Source: Gammaproteobacteria bacterium | GTDB taxonomy: Bacteria > Pseudomonadota > Gammaproteobacteria > VBWC01 | Length of the DNA stretch: 64,000 bases | Assembly (NCBI GenBank): GCA_023266115.1 | Contig: JAHFRU010000001.1 | Span: 124,001 to 188,000 of the forward strand | Reading direction: 5' to 3' | Shown here: positions 11,388 to 21,949 of the stretch, one piece after another | Layout: every line of letters begins with the position of its first letter | How positions within the stretch are numbered: the first letter of the stretch is position 1 | Translations under genes and position numbers: made by a program | The notes under the pieces: generated by a model | Databases searched by the model: none | What the model saw: only the letters and a program-made list of their open reading frames with translations | Told to the model about the DNA's origin: nothing

Positions 11388-11463
<76 letters not shown>

Positions 11464-11508: not shown

Positions 11509-11530
11509 GGTTCTACTGTGGTTCTACCTT
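11509..11530 (+). repeat. Left-end integrase arm-type site candidate
   Basis: Contains the core GGTTCTAC twice, separated by TGT, ending in CTT. The same 22 bases with one change occur at 21755-21776 near the right end, in the same orientation. Paired short repeats just inside both ends of an island are the expected layout for integrase arm-binding sites. The leader from 11464 to 11757 otherwise holds no gene. Confidence 0.5.
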
Positions 11531-11757
11531 CGGATGGGATTCTAGCCCTGAATAAGCACTAAGACTACCCCTAGGATTCCGTAAGAGGCTAGGCAAGGAT
11601 TACCCTCGGGATAACACCCCCACCCCCGGCGTATTGGGTCGGTAATCGCCATTGACCACTTTTCGTCCAACCACTTTCTAACACCGACTTTAAAACCGTC
11701 GCATTGTGTGGTCAGCGACGCACAATCGCGAATGCCTCGGCAAGCTAATGCAGTACC

Positions 11758-12187: not shown

Positions 12188-12655
12188 TTATTTTCTCTTC
12201 CGCCACTCCCACGGCGGTACTCTCTGATCTTCCTGTAGTGCCCATAATCCTAACCGCTGTTCGCGCGCCAACTTTTCCAGTTGGTAAAGGTTCTCATCCT
12301 TCGCGTATTTCGGATAGACCCAGGCATGTCCATTTCTGACCATTTCGGCGTTGACGTAGATACCTCCGACGTACACCTTGCCGACAATTCGCCCATATCG
12401 GTCGGTATCCACTTGCTCCACGTTCACGTATTTGCCAAAAACCCAATCAGATAACGCCTGCTTCGATTTCTGACCGTAGGGCTGTTTCTTCTCTGGTGCG
12501 TCGATTTCGGCTAGCCGGACTTTGTACTGTTTGCGGTCCTGTAGAACTGTGATGGTGTCGCCGTCTGCTATAGATACCACTTCGCCGATAATCACTGCGG
12601 CGTGACACTGCGATGTTAGCAGCAGAGAGAAGAAGAACAGGCTAAAACGTTTCAT
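12188..12655 (-). CDS. Exported thermonuclease (staphylococcal nuclease fold)
   Basis: The 155-residue protein has a cleavable signal peptide (about residues 1-19, ending CHA-A) followed by a complete SNase domain. Visible signatures: VVSIADGDTITVL, VRLAEIDAPE (catalytic Arg and metal-binding Asp), QPYGQKSKQAL, DTDRYGRIVGKV (second catalytic Arg region) and HAWVYPKYAK. Such enzymes cut DNA and RNA with calcium. Export puts the activity in the periplasm or outside the cell. It lies five bases after the 96-aa gene and 46 bases before the lipoprotein gene, probably in one leftward transcript. Confidence 0.93.
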   Translation of the reverse strand: MKRFSLFFFSLLLTSQCHAAVIIGEVVSIADGDTITVLQDRKQYKVRLAEIDAPEKKQPYGQKSKQALSDWVFGKYVNVEQVDTDRYGRIVGKVYVGGIYVNAEMVRNGHAWVYPKYAKDENLYQLEKLAREQRLGLWALQEDQRVPPWEWRKRK

Positions 12656-13045: not shown

Positions 13046-13489
13046 ATGCAATCTCATTCCTTTCATCTAAGGCTATTATCGTTTTTTGCACTGATCCTTT
13101 TTGCCAGCACGTCCTTTGCGGGGCATACGGTTCGTGGCTATCACCGTAAGGATGGTACTTACGTCGCGCCGCATTACAGTAGAAATAAGGGTGAAAGAAC
13201 GATCAGCCGAGAAACGAATTCTGGCGCGAAAATTCATCGAAGTAGAAGTCAGGGTATAGGAGCTACTAGTGGAAAAGGCAATTCTCACGGGAATGGTCAT
13301 CGTAGCGAAGCCGCTAAAAGCGCCTTCAAGAAGTCTCACCCTTGCCCTTCCACTGGTTCGTCAAGAGGTGCTTGTCCAGGCTATGTGATAGATCACATTA
13401 CGCCTTTGAAGCGCGGAGGGGCGGACGATCCACGCAATATGCAGTGGCAAACAGACAATCAAGCGAAGCAAAAGGATAAGTGGGAATAG
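13046..13489 (+). CDS. Exported HNH endonuclease
   Basis: Starts at the ATG at 13046 behind GGGGAGGT. Residues 1-25 form a signal peptide ending in TSFAG. The mature protein has a YHRKDGTYVAPHYSRNKG segment, a low-complexity Ser/Gly/His-rich linker (residues about 60-95), and a C-terminal HNH domain: CPGYVIDHITPLKRGG, then DDPRNMQWQTDNQAKQKDKWE split across the motif, giving the paired His, the Asn and the final His/Lys region. Such exported HNH proteins are annotated widely but rarely studied. It is divergent from the nuclease trio across 94 bases, so two exported nucleases share one promoter region. Confidence 0.87.
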   Translation: MQSHSFHLRLLSFFALILFASTSFAGHTVRGYHRKDGTYVAPHYSRNKGERTISRETNSGAKIHRSRSQGIGATSGKGNSHGNGHRSEAAKSAFKKSHPCPSTGSSRGACPGYVIDHITPLKRGGADDPRNMQWQTDNQAKQKDKWE

Positions 13490-14547: not shown

Positions 14548-14598
14548 AAACGCGCCGACCCAGCGCGAAGATATTCCATTCCTATTCCAGTGGCTGCC

Positions 14599-15258
14599 AT
14601 GTGTGGACGCTATAACATCGTCACTGACGCGGAAGCCCTAGCGGAGTTCTTTGAGATTGTTATTTTTGAACTCCAAGACTTCCACAGCAACTATAATGCC
14701 GCGCCGACGCAATACCTCCCTGTAGTGAGACTGACGGACGCGGGGCGTGAACTGATCGCGTTGCGCTGGGGGCTGGTGCCGTTCTGGGCCAAGGATACGA
14801 AGATCGGCTACAAGACCATAAACGCCAGAAGCGAAACCATTGCTACCAAGCCCGCCTTTCGGGCTGCGTATATAAAACGGCGTTGTCTGGTTCCCGCAAG
14901 TGGCTACTTTGAGTGGAAAGTGGAAGGAGGGGCAAAGCAGCCCTATAACATCTGCCTAGAAGAACGCGGTCTACTCGCGTTCGCAGGGCTATGGGAACAT
15001 TGGGAAGGAGAGAAGGAAACGCTCGATACTTTCACAATCGTTACTACCGCCGCGAGCGACCAAGTAAAACACATTCATGACCGAATGCCGGTAATACTGT
15101 CTGAGCAAGATTGTCGATTGTGGCTTACCAGCGACGATCAAGACACACTATCAAATTTACTGATTCCGCGAGATATACCGGGGCTGACTACCTACCCAGT
15201 TAACAAGCGAGTCAGTAATGCCCGTAACAACGATCCTGAGTGTATTCAACCGGCCTGA
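14599..15258 (+). CDS. SRAP-domain abasic-site-shielding protein (YedK/HMCES type)
   Basis: SRAP proteins cross-link through Cys2 to abasic sites in single-stranded DNA. The start at 14599 gives MCGRYNI, so Cys2 is exposed once Met is removed; the longer start at 14590 would block this. Other active-site elements are visible: KTINARSET (Asn), SGYFEWK (Glu) and HIHDRMPVIL (His). Length, 219 residues, is normal. Unlike most of the cargo it has no signal peptide and must act in the cytoplasm. It follows the LamG-type gene by 51 bases. Carriage on an island with two nucleases is notable. Confidence 0.93.
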   Translation: MCGRYNIVTDAEALAEFFEIVIFELQDFHSNYNAAPTQYLPVVRLTDAGRELIALRWGLVPFWAKDTKIGYKTINARSETIATKPAFRAAYIKRRCLVPASGYFEWKVEGGAKQPYNICLEERGLLAFAGLWEHWEGEKETLDTFTIVTTAASDQVKHIHDRMPVILSEQDCRLWLTSDDQDTLSNLLIPRDIPGLTTYPVNKRVSNARNNDPECIQPA

Positions 15259-17617: not shown

Positions 17618-18097
17618 TCACTCGATCCGCTCGCCTTCGACCGTTTTACCGGCCAGAGCTTGAAACTGATCTTGCAACTTCTTGAGTTCGTCCTTGCTGT
17701 TGCCGCTTATGCTCGTCGGCTGATTCCGGCCAAGGGCGCGCTTGTCAAAGCTGATCGCTTGCACAAGAGCTAAATCTCTAGCACCGACTGGCTTCCGCTT
17801 AAGGGCGCCGTCCTTGCTCACCAAGTAGTCCCCATCGGTAAGCCGGTCCTTGATTTGTTCCCCGGCCAAATGGATATTTTCGGTAAGCATCGCGTCCAGT
17901 TCGTCGGCTTTTTCGTCGCGGATTCTCGTTAACAAAGTTTCCCACCATTCGCATTTTCGCCAGCCGTATAAAGTTGATACCGGGATATTTACCAGTTCTG
18001 CAACCCGCGTCATTACCCCGGTTGTGGCATAGGCAGCGATCGCCTCTCGGCGCTTCTCGTCGGAATAGAGGCTGGTGTGTGATTCGATTGCGTCCAT
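17618..18097 (-). CDS. Terminase small-subunit-like HTH protein
   Basis: 159 residues. The N-terminal third is a helix-turn-helix (EKRREAIAAYATTGVMTRVAE, then LVNIPVSTLYGWRKCEWW), followed by a helical region (KADELDAMLTENIHLAGEQI) and a short strand-rich part (GDYLVSKDGALKRKPVGARD). This order is that of phage small terminase subunits, which choose the packaging site; phage satellites use their own copy to redirect packaging. A transposase-like or other HTH regulator is the alternative. The ATG at 18097 has GAGGGATG upstream. It is last in the leftward core, 13 bases after the ribbon-helix-helix-like gene. Confidence 0.55.
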   Translation of the reverse strand: MDAIESHTSLYSDEKRREAIAAYATTGVMTRVAELVNIPVSTLYGWRKCEWWETLLTRIRDEKADELDAMLTENIHLAGEQIKDRLTDGDYLVSKDGALKRKPVGARDLALVQAISFDKRALGRNQPTSISGNSKDELKKLQDQFQALAGKTVEGERIE

Positions 18098-18110
18098 CAC
18101 TCATCCCTCT

Positions 18111-18329
18111 TTACGATGTCGGTAAATTCCGGTCACGCGCCCACTCTGAAACAATACGATTCAAGATCGATGAGGCATCGTGACCAACATATGGCCGCCT
18201 GAGTTGGTCGATGATTGTTCCGGCCTGAGTGCCTACGTAGTAATCCAGCCGCCGTTTACCTTCACGCCGTCGCCGTTGGCGCATGCGGGCCATGTATCGC
18301 TGCCGCTCCATCCAGTGGTGATCTTCCAT
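18111..18329 (-). CDS. Small ribbon-helix-helix-like DNA-binding protein
   Basis: 72 residues starting at 18329 behind TAGGAGG; the ORF continues upstream to 18425 but without a better start. The N-terminal third is strongly basic (ARMRQRRRREGKRRLD). Then RLDYYVGTQAGTIIDQLRR and a helix DASSILNRIVSEWARD, which fit a beta strand plus two helices as in Arc/MetJ-type repressors. The gene stands directly downstream of an array of five palindromes; one lies at its ribosome site. It is therefore a natural candidate for the protein that binds them and controls its own transcription. Confidence 0.6.
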   Translation of the reverse strand: MEDHHWMERQRYMARMRQRRRREGKRRLDYYVGTQAGTIIDQLRRPYVGHDASSILNRIVSEWARDRNLPTS

Positions 18330-18345
18330 GCAGTATCGCCTCCTA

Positions 18346-18503
18346 ATACGTACTGCGTATGGTATATCTAAGAAGGTACACGGTATGCGTGTCAATTCAA
18401 TAGCAGAAAATGGCCTGATAAACACGGTATGCGTGTCAAAGAGCTTGGCGTTGGCCCGTAATTAACACGGTATGCGTGCTAGATTGACACGGTAGGCGTG
18501 TTA
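18346..18503. promoter_or_regulatory. Array of five phased palindromic sites
   Basis: Sites with the form ACACG-N5-CGTGT: 18378-18392 and 18422-18436 (perfect arms), 18465-18479 (last base changed), 18487-18501 (perfect arms, spacer GTAGG), plus ATACG-N5-CGTAT at 18346-18360 with symmetric changes. Start-to-start distances are 32, 44, 43 and 22 bp, all close to multiples of a helical turn. They span the control region of the 72-aa gene and the 3' end of the 153-aa gene. Two copies end in TGTCAA, giving leftward TTGACA hexamers, though no well-spaced leftward -10 is obvious. They are operators or replication iterons. Confidence 0.75.
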
Positions 18504-18897
18504 CCAAATTATTTCTCCATCGGTTGGACGGCACAGTGGTTGGTGGTACGTCAAGCTTGCCGTCGCACTCATCGATGCCAAGCCAGGTCAGCGCAAAGAG
18601 ATTGGCCTTGTGTCTTCCGCCTTGGCGCGTGCGGATAATCCACCCGCTAGATTCCAATTCGGTTTGTGCTCTGTTCAATGTGTCCCGAGACTTCCATCCA
18701 CGTTTCTTCATCCACCCCCACGCGGCGCAGAGGTCGCCATTGTTGCTGCCCCTAAACTGGCTACCCAGATCGACCAAGAGCTTGACCGCGATGGAGCTTA
18801 ATTGGGCGTACTCCTCGCTTTCGAGTATGTGTTTCGGGAGTCGAAGAAACGGGGCGCTATCTTTTCTGCCCTTTGTTTTTTGCCGTGTTCGTGCCAT
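18436..18897 (-). CDS. HTH protein, possible replication initiator
   Basis: 153 residues. After a basic N-terminus (MARTRQKTKGRKD) it has APFLRLPKHILESEEYAQLS, a winged-helix-like region (VKLLVDLGSQFRGSNNGD, AAWGWMKKRGWKSRDTLNRA) and ELESSGWIIRTRQGGRHKAN. Proteins of this type occur in phages and integrative elements near their replication region. Placement next to an iteron-like array supports an initiator or ori-binding role; a plain transcription regulator is the alternative. The last 20 or so codons overlap two and a half palindromes, so coding and control sequences are superimposed. No helicase or primase motif is present. Confidence 0.6.
   Translation of the reverse strand: MARTRQKTKGRKDSAPFLRLPKHILESEEYAQLSSIAVKLLVDLGSQFRGSNNGDLCAAWGWMKKRGWKSRDTLNRAQTELESSGWIIRTRQGGRHKANLFALTWLGIDECDGKLDVPPTTVPSNRWRNNLVTRLPCQSSTHTVLITGQRQAL
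18484..18512 (+). promoter_or_regulatory. Rightward promoter candidate in the palindrome array
   Basis: TTGACA at 18484-18489, a 17-base spacer, and AATTAT at 18507-18512 (four of six matches to TATAAT). It overlaps the last palindrome (18487-18501), so a protein bound there would block it. A transcript would start near 18519 and run antisense to the 153-aa gene towards the rightward terminator at 18937-18974. Confidence 0.5.
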
Positions 18898-18932
18898 AAT
18901 CCCTCTGCAATAGTACGAATAGACGTGAACGT

Positions 18933-19142
18933 TTAGGGCCGGGAATCTTCATTGGTTTCCGGCCTTTTTCTTTTGCGCAGCGATTGGTAAAGGCACCACG
19001 CTTCTATTCGGTCGATGTGGGCCAGATCAGGTTCAACACCCAATTCCGGGTAACGGTTGACCAATTCCTCCAGCTCGATAAGCCACTCAAATGACAGAAC
19101 CTCGATAGCTGGCGGATTTCCGCAGTGTTCGCAGCGCCTCAT
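18933..19142 (-). CDS. Small zinc-ribbon-like protein, 69 aa
   Basis: Begins MRRCEHCGNPP, a CxxC knuckle, followed by a helical acidic region (LIELEELVNRYPEL) and a basic C-terminus (SLRKRKRPE). Its ATG overlaps the stop of the 98-aa gene (ATGA), so the two are translationally coupled. The last dozen codons lie in the stem and T-run of the rightward terminator. I recognise no named family; small CxxC proteins of this size are common in phages and satellites. Confidence 0.55.
   Translation of the reverse strand: MRRCEHCGNPPAIEVLSFEWLIELEELVNRYPELGVEPDLAHIDRIEAWCLYQSLRKRKRPETNEDSRP
18937..18974 (+). terminator. Rightward intrinsic terminator
   Basis: Stem GGCCGGGAA (18937-18945) pairs with TTTCCGGCC (18956-18964) with one G-U pair and a 10-base loop, followed by TTTTTCTTTT (18965-18974). 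On the leftward strand no T-run follows, so it ends rightward transcription only. All island core genes are leftward; it also lies inside the 3' end of the 69-aa gene. Confidence 0.75.
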
Positions 19143-19435
19143 GACGCATCACCCCTGCGATTCACCTCGAAATAGGGCGCGAGAGCGTGGGAGAGGGCGG
19201 CCACGACGCTTTCGATATCTCGCATCGCCTCGGCTATCGTTTCGGCCTCCGATGCCCTCACCATTCTGTCCCGTAGACCGTTAACGGCTTGTTCAGCGGA
19301 TGCGTACCACGCGATGGATTCCCAGGCGGTTACAGGTTCGCCGGTCTTGCGGTCTTTGCGCTGCCGCCGTCGCTGGATCATCCAGGAGTATTGATCGGTC
19401 GCGAGGGCGAATTGGTCATTGATTGGAATTAACAT
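19139..19435 (-). CDS. Hypothetical phage-type protein, 98 aa
   Basis: Contains NDQFALATDQYSWMIQRRR, a basic patch (RRRQRKDRKTGE), then AWESIAWYASAEQAVNGLRD and a long C-terminal helix. The pattern of a short beta sheet, an RKTGE turn and a WxxxxWY-AEQA helix recurs in small unnamed proteins of integrative elements, next to excisionase-type genes. It sits between the AlpA-like gene (11 bases upstream) and the coupled 69-aa gene. No function can be assigned. Confidence 0.55.
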   Translation of the reverse strand: MLIPINDQFALATDQYSWMIQRRRQRKDRKTGEPVTAWESIAWYASAEQAVNGLRDRMVRASEAETIAEAMRDIESVVAALSHALAPYFEVNRRGDAS

Positions 19436-19446
19436 GCTTGGCCCCC

Positions 19447-19662
19447 TTATTCCGGCTGGGCTGTGGTGCGGCGGTCAATGAAAGCCTGGACATCCTCCGG
19501 GCGGTACATGATCTTGCGGCCTACGCGGACGAAGGGGAGGTTATAGCGTCCGACGCAGCGCCAGACCGTCAATGTGCCAGTCGATACGCCTAAGACTTTT
19601 GCGGTGTCACGGGGAGATAGGAGATTTCTTGGTCCAGAAGAATGAATGGACTGATTGTTCAT
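19447..19662 (-). CDS. alpA: AlpA/excisionase-type HTH regulator
   Basis: 71 residues from ATG 19662, preceded by AGAGGTAAT. The core NLLSPRDTAKVLGVSTGTL, TVWRCVGRYNLPFVRVGRKI and MYRPEDVQAFIDRR is the MerR-like winged HTH of AlpA and excisionase proteins. In P4-like and PICI satellites AlpA activates or controls excision and integrase expression. It is downstream of the 222-aa gene in the leftward array. Its ribosome binding site lies in one arm of a 13-bp perfect inverted repeat, which may control its translation. Confidence 0.85.
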   Translation of the reverse strand: MNNQSIHSSGPRNLLSPRDTAKVLGVSTGTLTVWRCVGRYNLPFVRVGRKIMYRPEDVQAFIDRRTTAQPE

Positions 19663-19667
19663 GATTA

Positions 19668-19699
19668 GATTACCTCTGTTATAAGCAACAGAGGTAATC
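19668..19699 (-). promoter_or_regulatory. Perfect 13-bp inverted repeat covering the alpA ribosome site
   Basis: Arms GATTACCTCTGTT (19668-19680) and AACAGAGGTAATC (19687-19699) around a 6-base spacer, six bases upstream of the alpA ATG. Read leftward, the 3' arm holds the AGAGGT ribosome site, so a transcript that includes both arms would hide it. As DNA it could instead be an operator. A second palindrome, TTTTTGCA-AC-TGCAAAAA, lies at 19721-19738. Confidence 0.7.
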
Positions 19700-19759
19700 A
19701 TCCGTTATCAAATCCTCAACTTTTTGCAACTGCAAAAACAAAATCGCAGCTGCAAAAAA

Positions 19760-20428
19760 TCATTCCGTGTGCTGCTTGTTATTCAGGATGCCAATGGCAG
19801 TAGAAATTCTATCCTCAATAGAGCGTTTGCTCATTCCAGTGGGATCGATTCCTTTTTTAGCGAGATGGTTAACAATCGCGCTCGAAACTTGACTTACATT
19901 TATTGATTCCGGTTTTTTGAATTTATTCCCCTTCGCATCGGAAAAGAGTTCCGCAAGTGCGCCAATTGTCTTAAGTAGAGAGTCTCGCTCATTGTTGTGG
20001 AGCGGATGCTCTTGGCAGGTATTAATTTGATGTTCTTCTTCAAATCTTAATAGTTCCGCTGCGGTTACCACGCATGTGCTGTAGTTGTTGGCTCTTGCTT
20101 GGACTAACTGTTCCGGGCTCAACTCGATATAGTCGCCCATAACGGTGTTTATCGGTGAATCATCAAACGGCGTATGGTTTTCTGAGCTATTAAGCAAATA
20201 CAAATCGTGTTTTTTCACAAGTTCCAGCATCTTTTTTGACGTATCATCGGAAAGCTCCACGATTGAAATTTCGAAGTCGCAAGATTCACTTTTGTAAGTT
20301 ACCAATAATTTACGGGCAAAAAGTTTTAGCCTTCTTCCTTCGGCGTAACTTTCTACTTGACGCTGTGGGCACTTCCATCTTTCAGCCAAGTCGGACAACG
20401 TGTATCCGTCTTTTGGCGGTAACGGCAT
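19760..20428 (-). CDS. Hypothetical HTH protein, 222 aa
   Basis: The N-terminus GYTLSDLAERWKCPQRQVES is a helix-turn-helix of the type found in excisionase-like proteins. The middle contains VVTAAELLRFEEEHQ, and the C-terminus NVSQVSSAIVNHLAKKGIDP then RSIEDRISTAIGIL is a helical module shared by several island-borne proteins of unknown role. It stands between the integrase and alpA, all leftward. A regulator of integration or excision is plausible. No catalytic motif. Confidence 0.6.
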   Translation of the reverse strand: MPLPPKDGYTLSDLAERWKCPQRQVESYAEGRRLKLFARKLLVTYKSESCDFEISIVELSDDTSKKMLELVKKHDLYLLNSSENHTPFDDSPINTVMGDYIELSPEQLVQARANNYSTCVVTAAELLRFEEEHQINTCQEHPLHNNERDSLLKTIGALAELFSDAKGNKFKKPESINVSQVSSAIVNHLAKKGIDPTGMSKRSIEDRISTAIGILNNKQHTE

Positions 20429-20524
20429 TGTTGGCCTCCTTCAGGGCTCCCTTCATGCTGAAACCAAGCCAAACCGGTGAAGGTTCCGGCGGTTCGGGAG
20501 CTACCCTAGGCTTGGTGTAAACAG

Positions 20525-21718
20525 TTAGCCGATTTTTCTGATTTTTACAACATCCCCGCCCTTCAGAACACCTCCCGCTTGCAGCATCGCATCCGTCGCC
20601 TTATTCATAGCGTCGCGTACTGGATCAAGGCTCAGGCGGGCATATATGGCCGTGGTGCTCACGTTCTTGTGGGCAAGGGTCTTGCCGATGATCGATAGAT
20701 TTGCGCCGGTTGAGGCTTGCCAGCTACCAAGCGAGCGCCTTAGATCGTGAAGGCGCAAGTCCTGAATCCCGGCCCGTTCCAGAATCCGCTCCCAAGGGCG
20801 TTTGGGGTCCATGAGGTGGCCGGACTGGCTCTTGCTCGGAAGTACCCATGGGCTAGTGGAAGCCTCCGTTCTGTCCCGTAGTATCGAAACCGCTTGGGAA
20901 ACCAGTGGCACGGTATGGGGGTCACCGTTTTTCGTCTTGGGAATGGTCCAGGTTGCCCGTTCGATATTCACTTGCTCCCAGCGCATGGCAAGTACATTCG
21001 ATTGGCGAGCGCCGGTTAACAGGCTCAATAGGACGTAGTCGCGTGCCGCCTCGTTCGGTTCTTCTGCGACCGCTTCGAAGAAGCGGGGGAGTTCGTCAGG
21101 CTGTAGAAACCGTTCCCGCGACTGCTCACGGAACTTTTTTACTCTGTGCGCCGGGTTCGGCCCGCTCCATCCCCATTCCATGGCCTTGTTGAACACGGTA
21201 TGGAGCAAGGCGAGTAGCCGATTAGCGGCGTAATGCCCCCGTTCCTTCCCGAGTTCGGCGTGGAGAGTATGTATTTGTTTTCTGTTTATCTGCGAGAGCT
21301 TACGGCTCTTCCAATGGGCCAGATAGCGCCTAAACTGTGCCGCGTCCTCTCGCCACTTGATCTTGTGTACCTTGGCGTGGCGTTCGAGGTATTCATCGAA
21401 CAGCTCTCCCAGCGTGATTTCGGCGCTAATCGCCCGTTTCTCGTCCTGGGGGTTTTTACCATCGGCTATATCGGCGTTGAGCTTCGAGGCTGCCCCTCGT
21501 GCGCGCTCGATTGACATGTCAGGGAAAGCTGCTATGCGTATCCGTTCGGCCCTGCCGTGGATTTTGCGGTACAAGTAGAACGTCTTGGTGCCGGAGGAGG
21601 TGACACAGAGCGTCAGGCCGCGTGTATGGGTGTCGTAGTGGTAGGCCCGCTTCCCCTTGGGTGGCGTCGGAAGGTTGAGAAGTTCTTTCTTGGTGAAGTT
21701 GAATCGTTTGTCCGCCAT
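20525..21718 (-). CDS. int: Tyrosine integrase (P4 type)
   Basis: 397 residues with the P4-integrase layout: an N-terminal arm-binding domain (YHYDTHTRGLTLCVTSSGTK), a core-binding domain and a C-terminal catalytic domain. Catalytic residues are visible: Arg238 (LLTGARQSNV), His324-x-x-Arg327 (HDLRRS), His350 (LAHKN) and Tyr359 (AIYARL), with a Lys near 261-263. It would recombine the tRNA-Thr 3' end. The gene reads inward from attR; its promoter region contains the right arm-type site. It looks complete, so the island may still be able to excise, with the AlpA-like protein as helper. Confidence 0.96.
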   Translation of the reverse strand: MADKRFNFTKKELLNLPTPPKGKRAYHYDTHTRGLTLCVTSSGTKTFYLYRKIHGRAERIRIAAFPDMSIERARGAASKLNADIADGKNPQDEKRAISAEITLGELFDEYLERHAKVHKIKWREDAAQFRRYLAHWKSRKLSQINRKQIHTLHAELGKERGHYAANRLLALLHTVFNKAMEWGWSGPNPAHRVKKFREQSRERFLQPDELPRFFEAVAEEPNEAARDYVLLSLLTGARQSNVLAMRWEQVNIERATWTIPKTKNGDPHTVPLVSQAVSILRDRTEASTSPWVLPSKSQSGHLMDPKRPWERILERAGIQDLRLHDLRRSLGSWQASTGANLSIIGKTLAHKNVSTTAIYARLSLDPVRDAMNKATDAMLQAGGVLKGGDVVKIRKIG

Positions 21719-21754: not shown

Positions 21755-21776
21755 GGTTCTACCGTGGTTCTACCTT
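21755..21776 (+). repeat. Right-end integrase arm-type site candidate
   Basis: Near-identical copy (one change, T to C) of the sequence at 11509-11530, lying between the integrase start codon (21718) and attR. It contains two GGTTCTACC half-sites. Binding by the integrase is inferred from position, not shown. The remaining bases between 21719 and 22057 hold only this site and attR. Confidence 0.5.
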
Positions 21777-21902
21777 TGGCAGTAAGAATCGGTAGTCTTC
21801 AGGTAGGACCGTTAAACCAAAGGTACGGGTAACAGGCTGATACTTAAACAGGTGTTAAGGTTGGATAAATACAAATAATCTCGGTATATTTGCCTGAGGA
21901 GC

Positions 21903-21949
21903 GATTCGTAATCAGTAGGTCGGAGGTTCGATTCCTCTCTCCGGCACCA
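21903..21949 (+). repeat. attR (tRNA-Thr 3' half copy)
   Basis: Right copy of the 47-bp direct repeat, identical to 11417-11463. It is not a functional tRNA gene, because the 5' half is missing. It lies 184 bases upstream of the integrase start codon and marks the right border of the island; the ampD gene begins 108 bases further on. Confidence 0.92.

Follow-up and report, generated by a model that had tools for sequence, protein, structure and literature searches.

Near the control region of a small genomic island, positions 18346–18503 of a 64-kb window (the whole stretch of DNA analysed, 64,000 nucleotides) carry a run of short palindromes. The sequence-only reading took these to be repressor operators, replication iterons or both, bound by the product of either of two adjacent genes, of 72 and 153 amino acids. 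Here we ask which sites belong together, which protein would recognise them, and for what function.

Four phased palindromes in an integrated island

The island measures 10,486 bp and is bounded by perfect 47-bp direct repeats on the plus strand, attL (11417–11463), which is the 3′ end of a tRNA-Thr gene (11388–11463), and attR (21903–21949). Its GC content is about 50%, against about 60% outside. In a genome of the same genus (G001) the site is empty: the left flank and att join right-flank-like sequence directly, with identities of 93.8% and 95.5%, and there is no island. Both the integrated and the empty att states are demonstrated.

Along the minus strand, the gene order is a tyrosine integrase (397 aa, 20525–21718; Pfam PF00589 at 1.3e-26, Arm-DNA-bind_3 at 9.6e-14), a 222-aa ORF, an AlpA/excisionase-like HTH_17 protein (84 aa, 19447–19701; PF12728 at 2.2e-8, phrog_66 excisionase at 2.2e-7), two small ORFs, the 153-aa protein (18436–18897), the palindromes, the 72-aa ORF (18111–18329) and an HTH protein of 160 aa (17618–18100). 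The last is called TerS-like because its phage homologues, at 27% (coverage 98% and 90%), are encoded shortly before a terminase gene; its own PHROG TerS matches are weak. No primase was matched among the eight window proteins from 17618 to 21718 in PHROGs, Pfam or NCBIfam, and a search of plasmid DNA with the right part of the island returned no match. The island also holds an SRAP (SOS-associated peptidase) gene (14590–15258) and, near its tRNA end, a staphylococcal-nuclease-like ORF (12188–12655) and an HNH-like ORF (13046–13489); in one relative (L034), an SRAP-like stretch is read through downstream of the initiator. Just within both island ends lies a 25-nt near-repeat, GGTTCTACTGTGGTTCTACCTTCGG (11509–11533 and 21755–21779, 92%), which holds a tandem GGTTCTAC and may provide integrase arm sites.

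The five 15-mers start exactly where the sequence-only reading had placed them, at 18346, 18378, 18422, 18465 and 18487, giving spacings of 32, 44, 43 and 22 bp. On the minus strand, palindrome 1 (AACACGCCTACCGTGTC, 18486–18502) and palindrome 2 (AGCACGCATACCGTGTT, 18464–18480) fall within the last codons of the 153-aa ORF, as had been claimed, followed by palindrome 3 (GACACGCATACCGTGTT, 18421–18437) and palindrome 4 (GACACGCATACCGTGTA, 18377–18393). The form ACACG-N5-CGTGT, claimed for four sites, is perfect at three of them, the site at 18465 ending in CGTGC with one mismatch. Nor is the N5 a free spacer: it reads GTATG at three sites and GTAGG at one.

The remaining site, earlier described as a symmetric variant, is a palindrome (ATACGTACTGCGTAT, 18346–18360), but 5 of its 15 bases do not match the others, and its place is outside the array, beyond the conserved element that closes it and before the Shine-Dalgarno sequence of the 72-aa gene. 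We therefore rejected it as an array member. Inverted repeats with arms of at least 5 are mildly commoner at this place in relatives (14 of 64) than in control stretches (19 of 256), in a comparison where the best place was chosen per locus and several of the 14 relatives are closely related.

With two mismatches allowed, ACACG-N5-CGTGT is no commoner in the whole window (41 occurrences) than in shuffles (mean 39.6), so the signal lies in the clustering; the only three perfect copies in 64 kb are all inside 124 bp. The cluster is not due to chance, since relatives show the same spacing, 22/43/44 along the gene in the window and again 22/43/44 at one relative (L013). The four palindromes are one family, and the array that they form where the 153-aa gene ends is real.

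The 72-aa gene, on the minus strand with a good Shine-Dalgarno sequence, had been thought to encode a ribbon-helix-helix-like protein. This description finds no support: no relative of the protein turned up in the 142 other genomes of the 143 searched or in phage records, it has no family match in PHROGs, Pfam or NCBIfam, and its AlphaFold model, built from a single sequence, comprises two helices and no strand. With neither relatives nor a modelled strand, it was rejected as the palindrome binder.

The array and its closing element in relatives

Relatives of the 153-aa protein were found with a four-row alignment, earlier single-sequence scans having given none. The family comprises 55 loci in genome contigs and 12 in viral contigs, and within the class 18 of 369 genomes have a match, counting the one from which the window comes. 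A set of 91 loci reduced to 87 distinct ones, of which 85, related among themselves and grouped in coarse protein clusters, were long enough for array counts. When the 3′ ends of the homologous genes were scanned de novo for repeats, near-palindromes at a common spacing emerged. By a strict rule, 51 of the 85 non-redundant loci have three copies or more. That number was reached by 1 of 84 control regions taken 0.9 kb downstream, by 0 of 79 taken upstream and by none of the 255 shuffles; the other 34 relatives, some of them distant or truncated, fall below three copies. Among 51 further regions, the array is present in 42.

The spacings in relatives cluster at 22, 33, 43–44 and 54 bp. With each of 28 clusters represented by one locus, there are 69 spacings below 60 bp; their resultant length is 0.83 at a period of 10.65 bp, and none of 5000 random sets was as strong. 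The commonest patterns are 22/43/44 (7 of 62 loci), 33/43/44 (5) and 22/54/35 (4). Site number, spacing, orientation and the flanking element are kept across relatives. The sequence-only reading had proposed a check for conserved arms and variable spacers; for the arms the opposite holds, as they vary between elements yet track the protein. In one larger homologue of 334 aa (L082), the array is located inside the gene.

Directly after the last palindrome, relatives carry an 18-nt ACCTTTATATATnTACCA-like element. The window copy, ACCTTCTTAGATATACCA (18360–18377, minus strand), adjoins palindrome 4. An earlier scan with a position weight matrix had picked the best place per locus; it was followed by a cross-validated version with controls, in which the matrix was trained on one half of the loci and tested on the other. 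A score of at least 12 was reached at 55 of 85 loci, but in only one of 83 downstream controls and two of 85 shuffles, and in 40 of 46 loci the element starts −1 to +2 bases from the independently found palindrome. Its AT content is 67% over a short stretch of 20 nt, against about 50% around it, and we infer that it is a candidate unwinding element. DnaA boxes are not enriched (3 in 35,200 nt versus 1 in 17,600 nt). The 27-nt linker between palindromes 3 and 4 (18394–18420, minus strand), with TCAGGCCATTTT, is similar in several relatives, and its TCAGGnC-n-TTTT motif recurs in many.

The surroundings of the array also recur, with an integrase cluster at 61 of 87 loci, mostly on the same strand, and one AlpA-like cluster at 40 of 87. 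At three loci (L039, L041 and L072) neighbouring genes have matches to families of major head, protease or portal proteins, and at least some of the elements are therefore capsid-forming satellites or phage-derived. One 16-kb record deposited as Pseudomonas phage vB_Pae_U1 (PP003913.1; L011) is island-like, with the satellite-like content of integrase, Cox/AlpA, initiator and array, followed by Rhs genes.

The winged-helix protein and its recognition helix

AlphaFold predicts a winged helix for the 153-aa protein (mean pLDDT 85.7), with the recognition helix at residues 71–84. The protein ends soon after this domain and lacks a C-terminal domain; residues past about 130 are modelled with lower confidence. 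A profile search of solved structures placed PDB 4pta first (0.0054), ahead of 4pql, 5kbj and 4pt7, while Foldseek gave 4pql at 0.0034 and VIA-align gave 4pql with Z 8.1. All of these matches are weak, and they suggest that the closest solved structures are the N-terminal domains of plasmid RepA initiators. PHROG matches of 36 relatives were mostly to ‘DnaD-like helicase loader’ (16) and ‘replication initiation O-like’ (9 and 8) families, and the 334-aa homologue matched DnaD-like/replication initiation families at 4.8e-13. Together with the covariation described below, the fold and its matches make the 153-aa protein a predicted replication initiator.

TubR (4asn) is also among the fold matches, as it might be if a TubR/ParR-like winged-helix protein used the array as a centromere-like partition site. 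It ranked below RepA, however, no partner filament gene occurs among the recurrent neighbours (families named by eye), and integrated islands do not need partition; we find this reading barely credible.

A winged helix is likewise common to many repressors, and the 153-aa protein could be a transcriptional regulator acting on an operator array to control a promoter at the conserved element, which would drive a downstream operon. In the window, the TTGACA hexamers noted earlier are present, TTGACA overlaps palindrome 4, and a co-directional gene with a Shine-Dalgarno sequence follows. A promoter scan, however, found no leftward promoter, its single promoter-like site being rightward (18484–18512; shuffles give a mean of 1.3). 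In two relatives (L057 and L062) the next long ORFs point towards the array, so that no obvious target of control lies downstream; autoregulation needs less than four phased sites over about 120 bp that end at a fixed element; and RepA initiators rank first by both profile and fold. An operator array is thus unlikely. Between the two functions first proposed for the sites, iterons are favoured by the 3′-end arrays in most relatives, by the RepA domains being nearest in structure and by the covariation of the arms, and repressor operators have gained no positive support.

Across elements, the arms read ACACG, GTACA, GGCCG, CCCCG, CGCA, TTCG and others. This variation was compared with the protein at 56 loci, drawn from 62 with arrays under a laxer rule after six were removed for poor symmetry (L018, L025, L050, L066, L072 and L092), and thinned to 25 protein clusters with 7 same-dipeptide pairs. 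Elements with the same residues 71–72 share 3.86 of 5 half-site bases, versus 1.96 otherwise, a difference reached in 0 of 2000 permutations, and residue 72 has the highest z of all alignment columns (4.45).

The 42 arrays from the 51 new regions served as a held-out set, in which 17 loci had a same-dipeptide training locus below 70% identity. The half-site agreed with the predicted direction in 16 and ran against it in 1, the independent cases being fewer than 17 because several loci are near-duplicates; for loci with symmetry of at least 3.5, 14 were for and 0 against. For example, SRDTL goes with ACACG in L118, SKSTL with GTACG in L175 (45% identity) and SDNTL with CGCA in L180 (44%). The code has exceptions, as L098 combines the helix start of the window, SRDTL, with a TACCG half-site, and L120 contradicts it. 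This covariation between arm and helix argues for the 153-aa family as the binder and leaves the 72-aa protein without a role.

The same result bears on packaging. Lambda cosB also has repeated sites that are bound by a winged-helix protein, and this parallel, the capsid, protease and portal genes among relatives and the TerS-like gene within the window island would all suit a cosB- or pac-like array for a satellite-encoded terminase small subunit. The arms, however, covary with the 153-aa winged-helix protein and not with the TerS-like protein, and the PHROG matches indicate replication, which leaves a packaging site highly improbable.

A predicted origin and its known counterparts

In our preferred reading, to which we give a probability of about three in four, the 153-aa initiator binds the four palindromes, and these together with the ACCTTCTTAGATATACCA element serve as the replication origin of an integrative, phage-satellite-like island of 10.5 kb. 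As in iteron-type origins, several phased repeats have an AT-rich element alongside and an initiator gene next door, here immediately upstream and overlapping the first two sites. A dimer of the 153-aa protein would bind each palindrome, contacting it with the N-terminal end of the recognition helix. As the sites are separated by whole helical turns, we propose that the dimers line up along a single face of the DNA, over about 120 bp, from where they would act on the adjacent AT-richer element; once the integrase and AlpA have excised the island, the strands would open there. The protein lacks a C-terminal domain, and neither a primase nor a helicase was recognised next to its gene, so that the host or a helper phage would have to supply the replisome.

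More broadly, we lean towards a widespread and previously undescribed replicon family, in which a winged-helix-only initiator is paired with about four phased palindromes and a ACCTTTATATATnTACCA element at the 3′ end of its own gene. Put more colloquially, the origin ‘passwords’ would have changed again and again in step with two residues of the recognition helix while the geometry stayed fixed, forming a readable initiator–origin code. One genome carries two initiator–array loci about 30 kb apart (L012 and L013, G137 contig 7) with GGCCG-like and AACCG-like palindromes, as expected if different origins coexist. In Microbulbifer thermotolerans, two elements (L049 and L051) share the same half-site, which counts against strict incompatibility.

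At ori lambda, four inverted-repeat iterons lie at the O initiator gene, beside an AT-rich element, and the window has the same arrangement of four inverted repeats at a predicted initiator gene near an AT-rich element. The 153-aa protein differs in having no O-like C-terminal domain, and Phage_rep_O was matched weakly in 1 of 36 members. The RepA_N plasmid initiators, whose structures are the nearest though weak fold and profile matches, have dimeric N-terminal domains that bind semi-palindromic iterons (PMC7145576). Here, Pfam RepA_N (PF06970) matched none of the 36 members scanned at E 0.1, the C-terminal domain is absent, and the arrays are not poly-A centred.

Gram-negative PICIs (PMC6092414) share with the window an integrase and AlpA upstream in one direction of transcription, an origin immediately 3′ of the initiator gene (predicted here) and iterons beside an AT-rich stretch. 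They have two iteron sets flanking the AT-rich region and a primase/rep gene, whereas here the repeats lie on one side only and no primase was recognised. The available parts of the papers on PICMI (PMC10803314) and helper-embedded PICI (PMC10111431) describe no such array, nor did searches of an open-access library, without subscription journals, list a paper whose title and opening of the abstract point to one.

The closest in kind are the PLEs, phage satellites of Vibrio cholerae, whose RepA is a RepA_N-type initiator with semi-palindromic iterons and whose DNA-binding domain covaries with the origin (PMC7145576, PMC8263062). Both systems have a winged-helix protein with no primase or helicase domain together with semi-palindromic repeats, the RepA type of the fold, the satellite lifestyle and the binding being predicted here. 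In PLEs, RepA also has a conserved C-terminal domain, and the iterons, three of about 30 bp, lie in a non-coding region (PMC7145576, PMC8263062); in contrast, the present family has the winged helix only, with about four 17-bp palindromes at fixed spacing at the 3′ end of its own gene. In the PLE–ICP1 conflict, a phage nuclease imitates the initiator (PMC7145576, PMC8263062, PMC10448857), and by analogy password switching here would perhaps be driven by anti-satellite nucleases, or by incompatibility. A tblastn search of phage records with three members for a phage nuclease fused to this winged helix gave no annotated fusion, the matches being only vB_Pae_U1 and one Helicobacter prophage.

The layout recurs in related islands from many other bacteria, each with DNA passwords that differ from those of the window yet match its own protein. 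If the origin reading is right, the array is a sequence signature for locating satellite-like islands, along with their origins, across many Proteobacteria. It would also supply natural orthogonal initiator–origin pairs whose specificity follows a simple code, and a way to test how DNA is opened by an initiator that has neither helicase nor primase domains. An initiator–origin covariation known from a few Vibrio cholerae PLEs would thereby extend to many elements.
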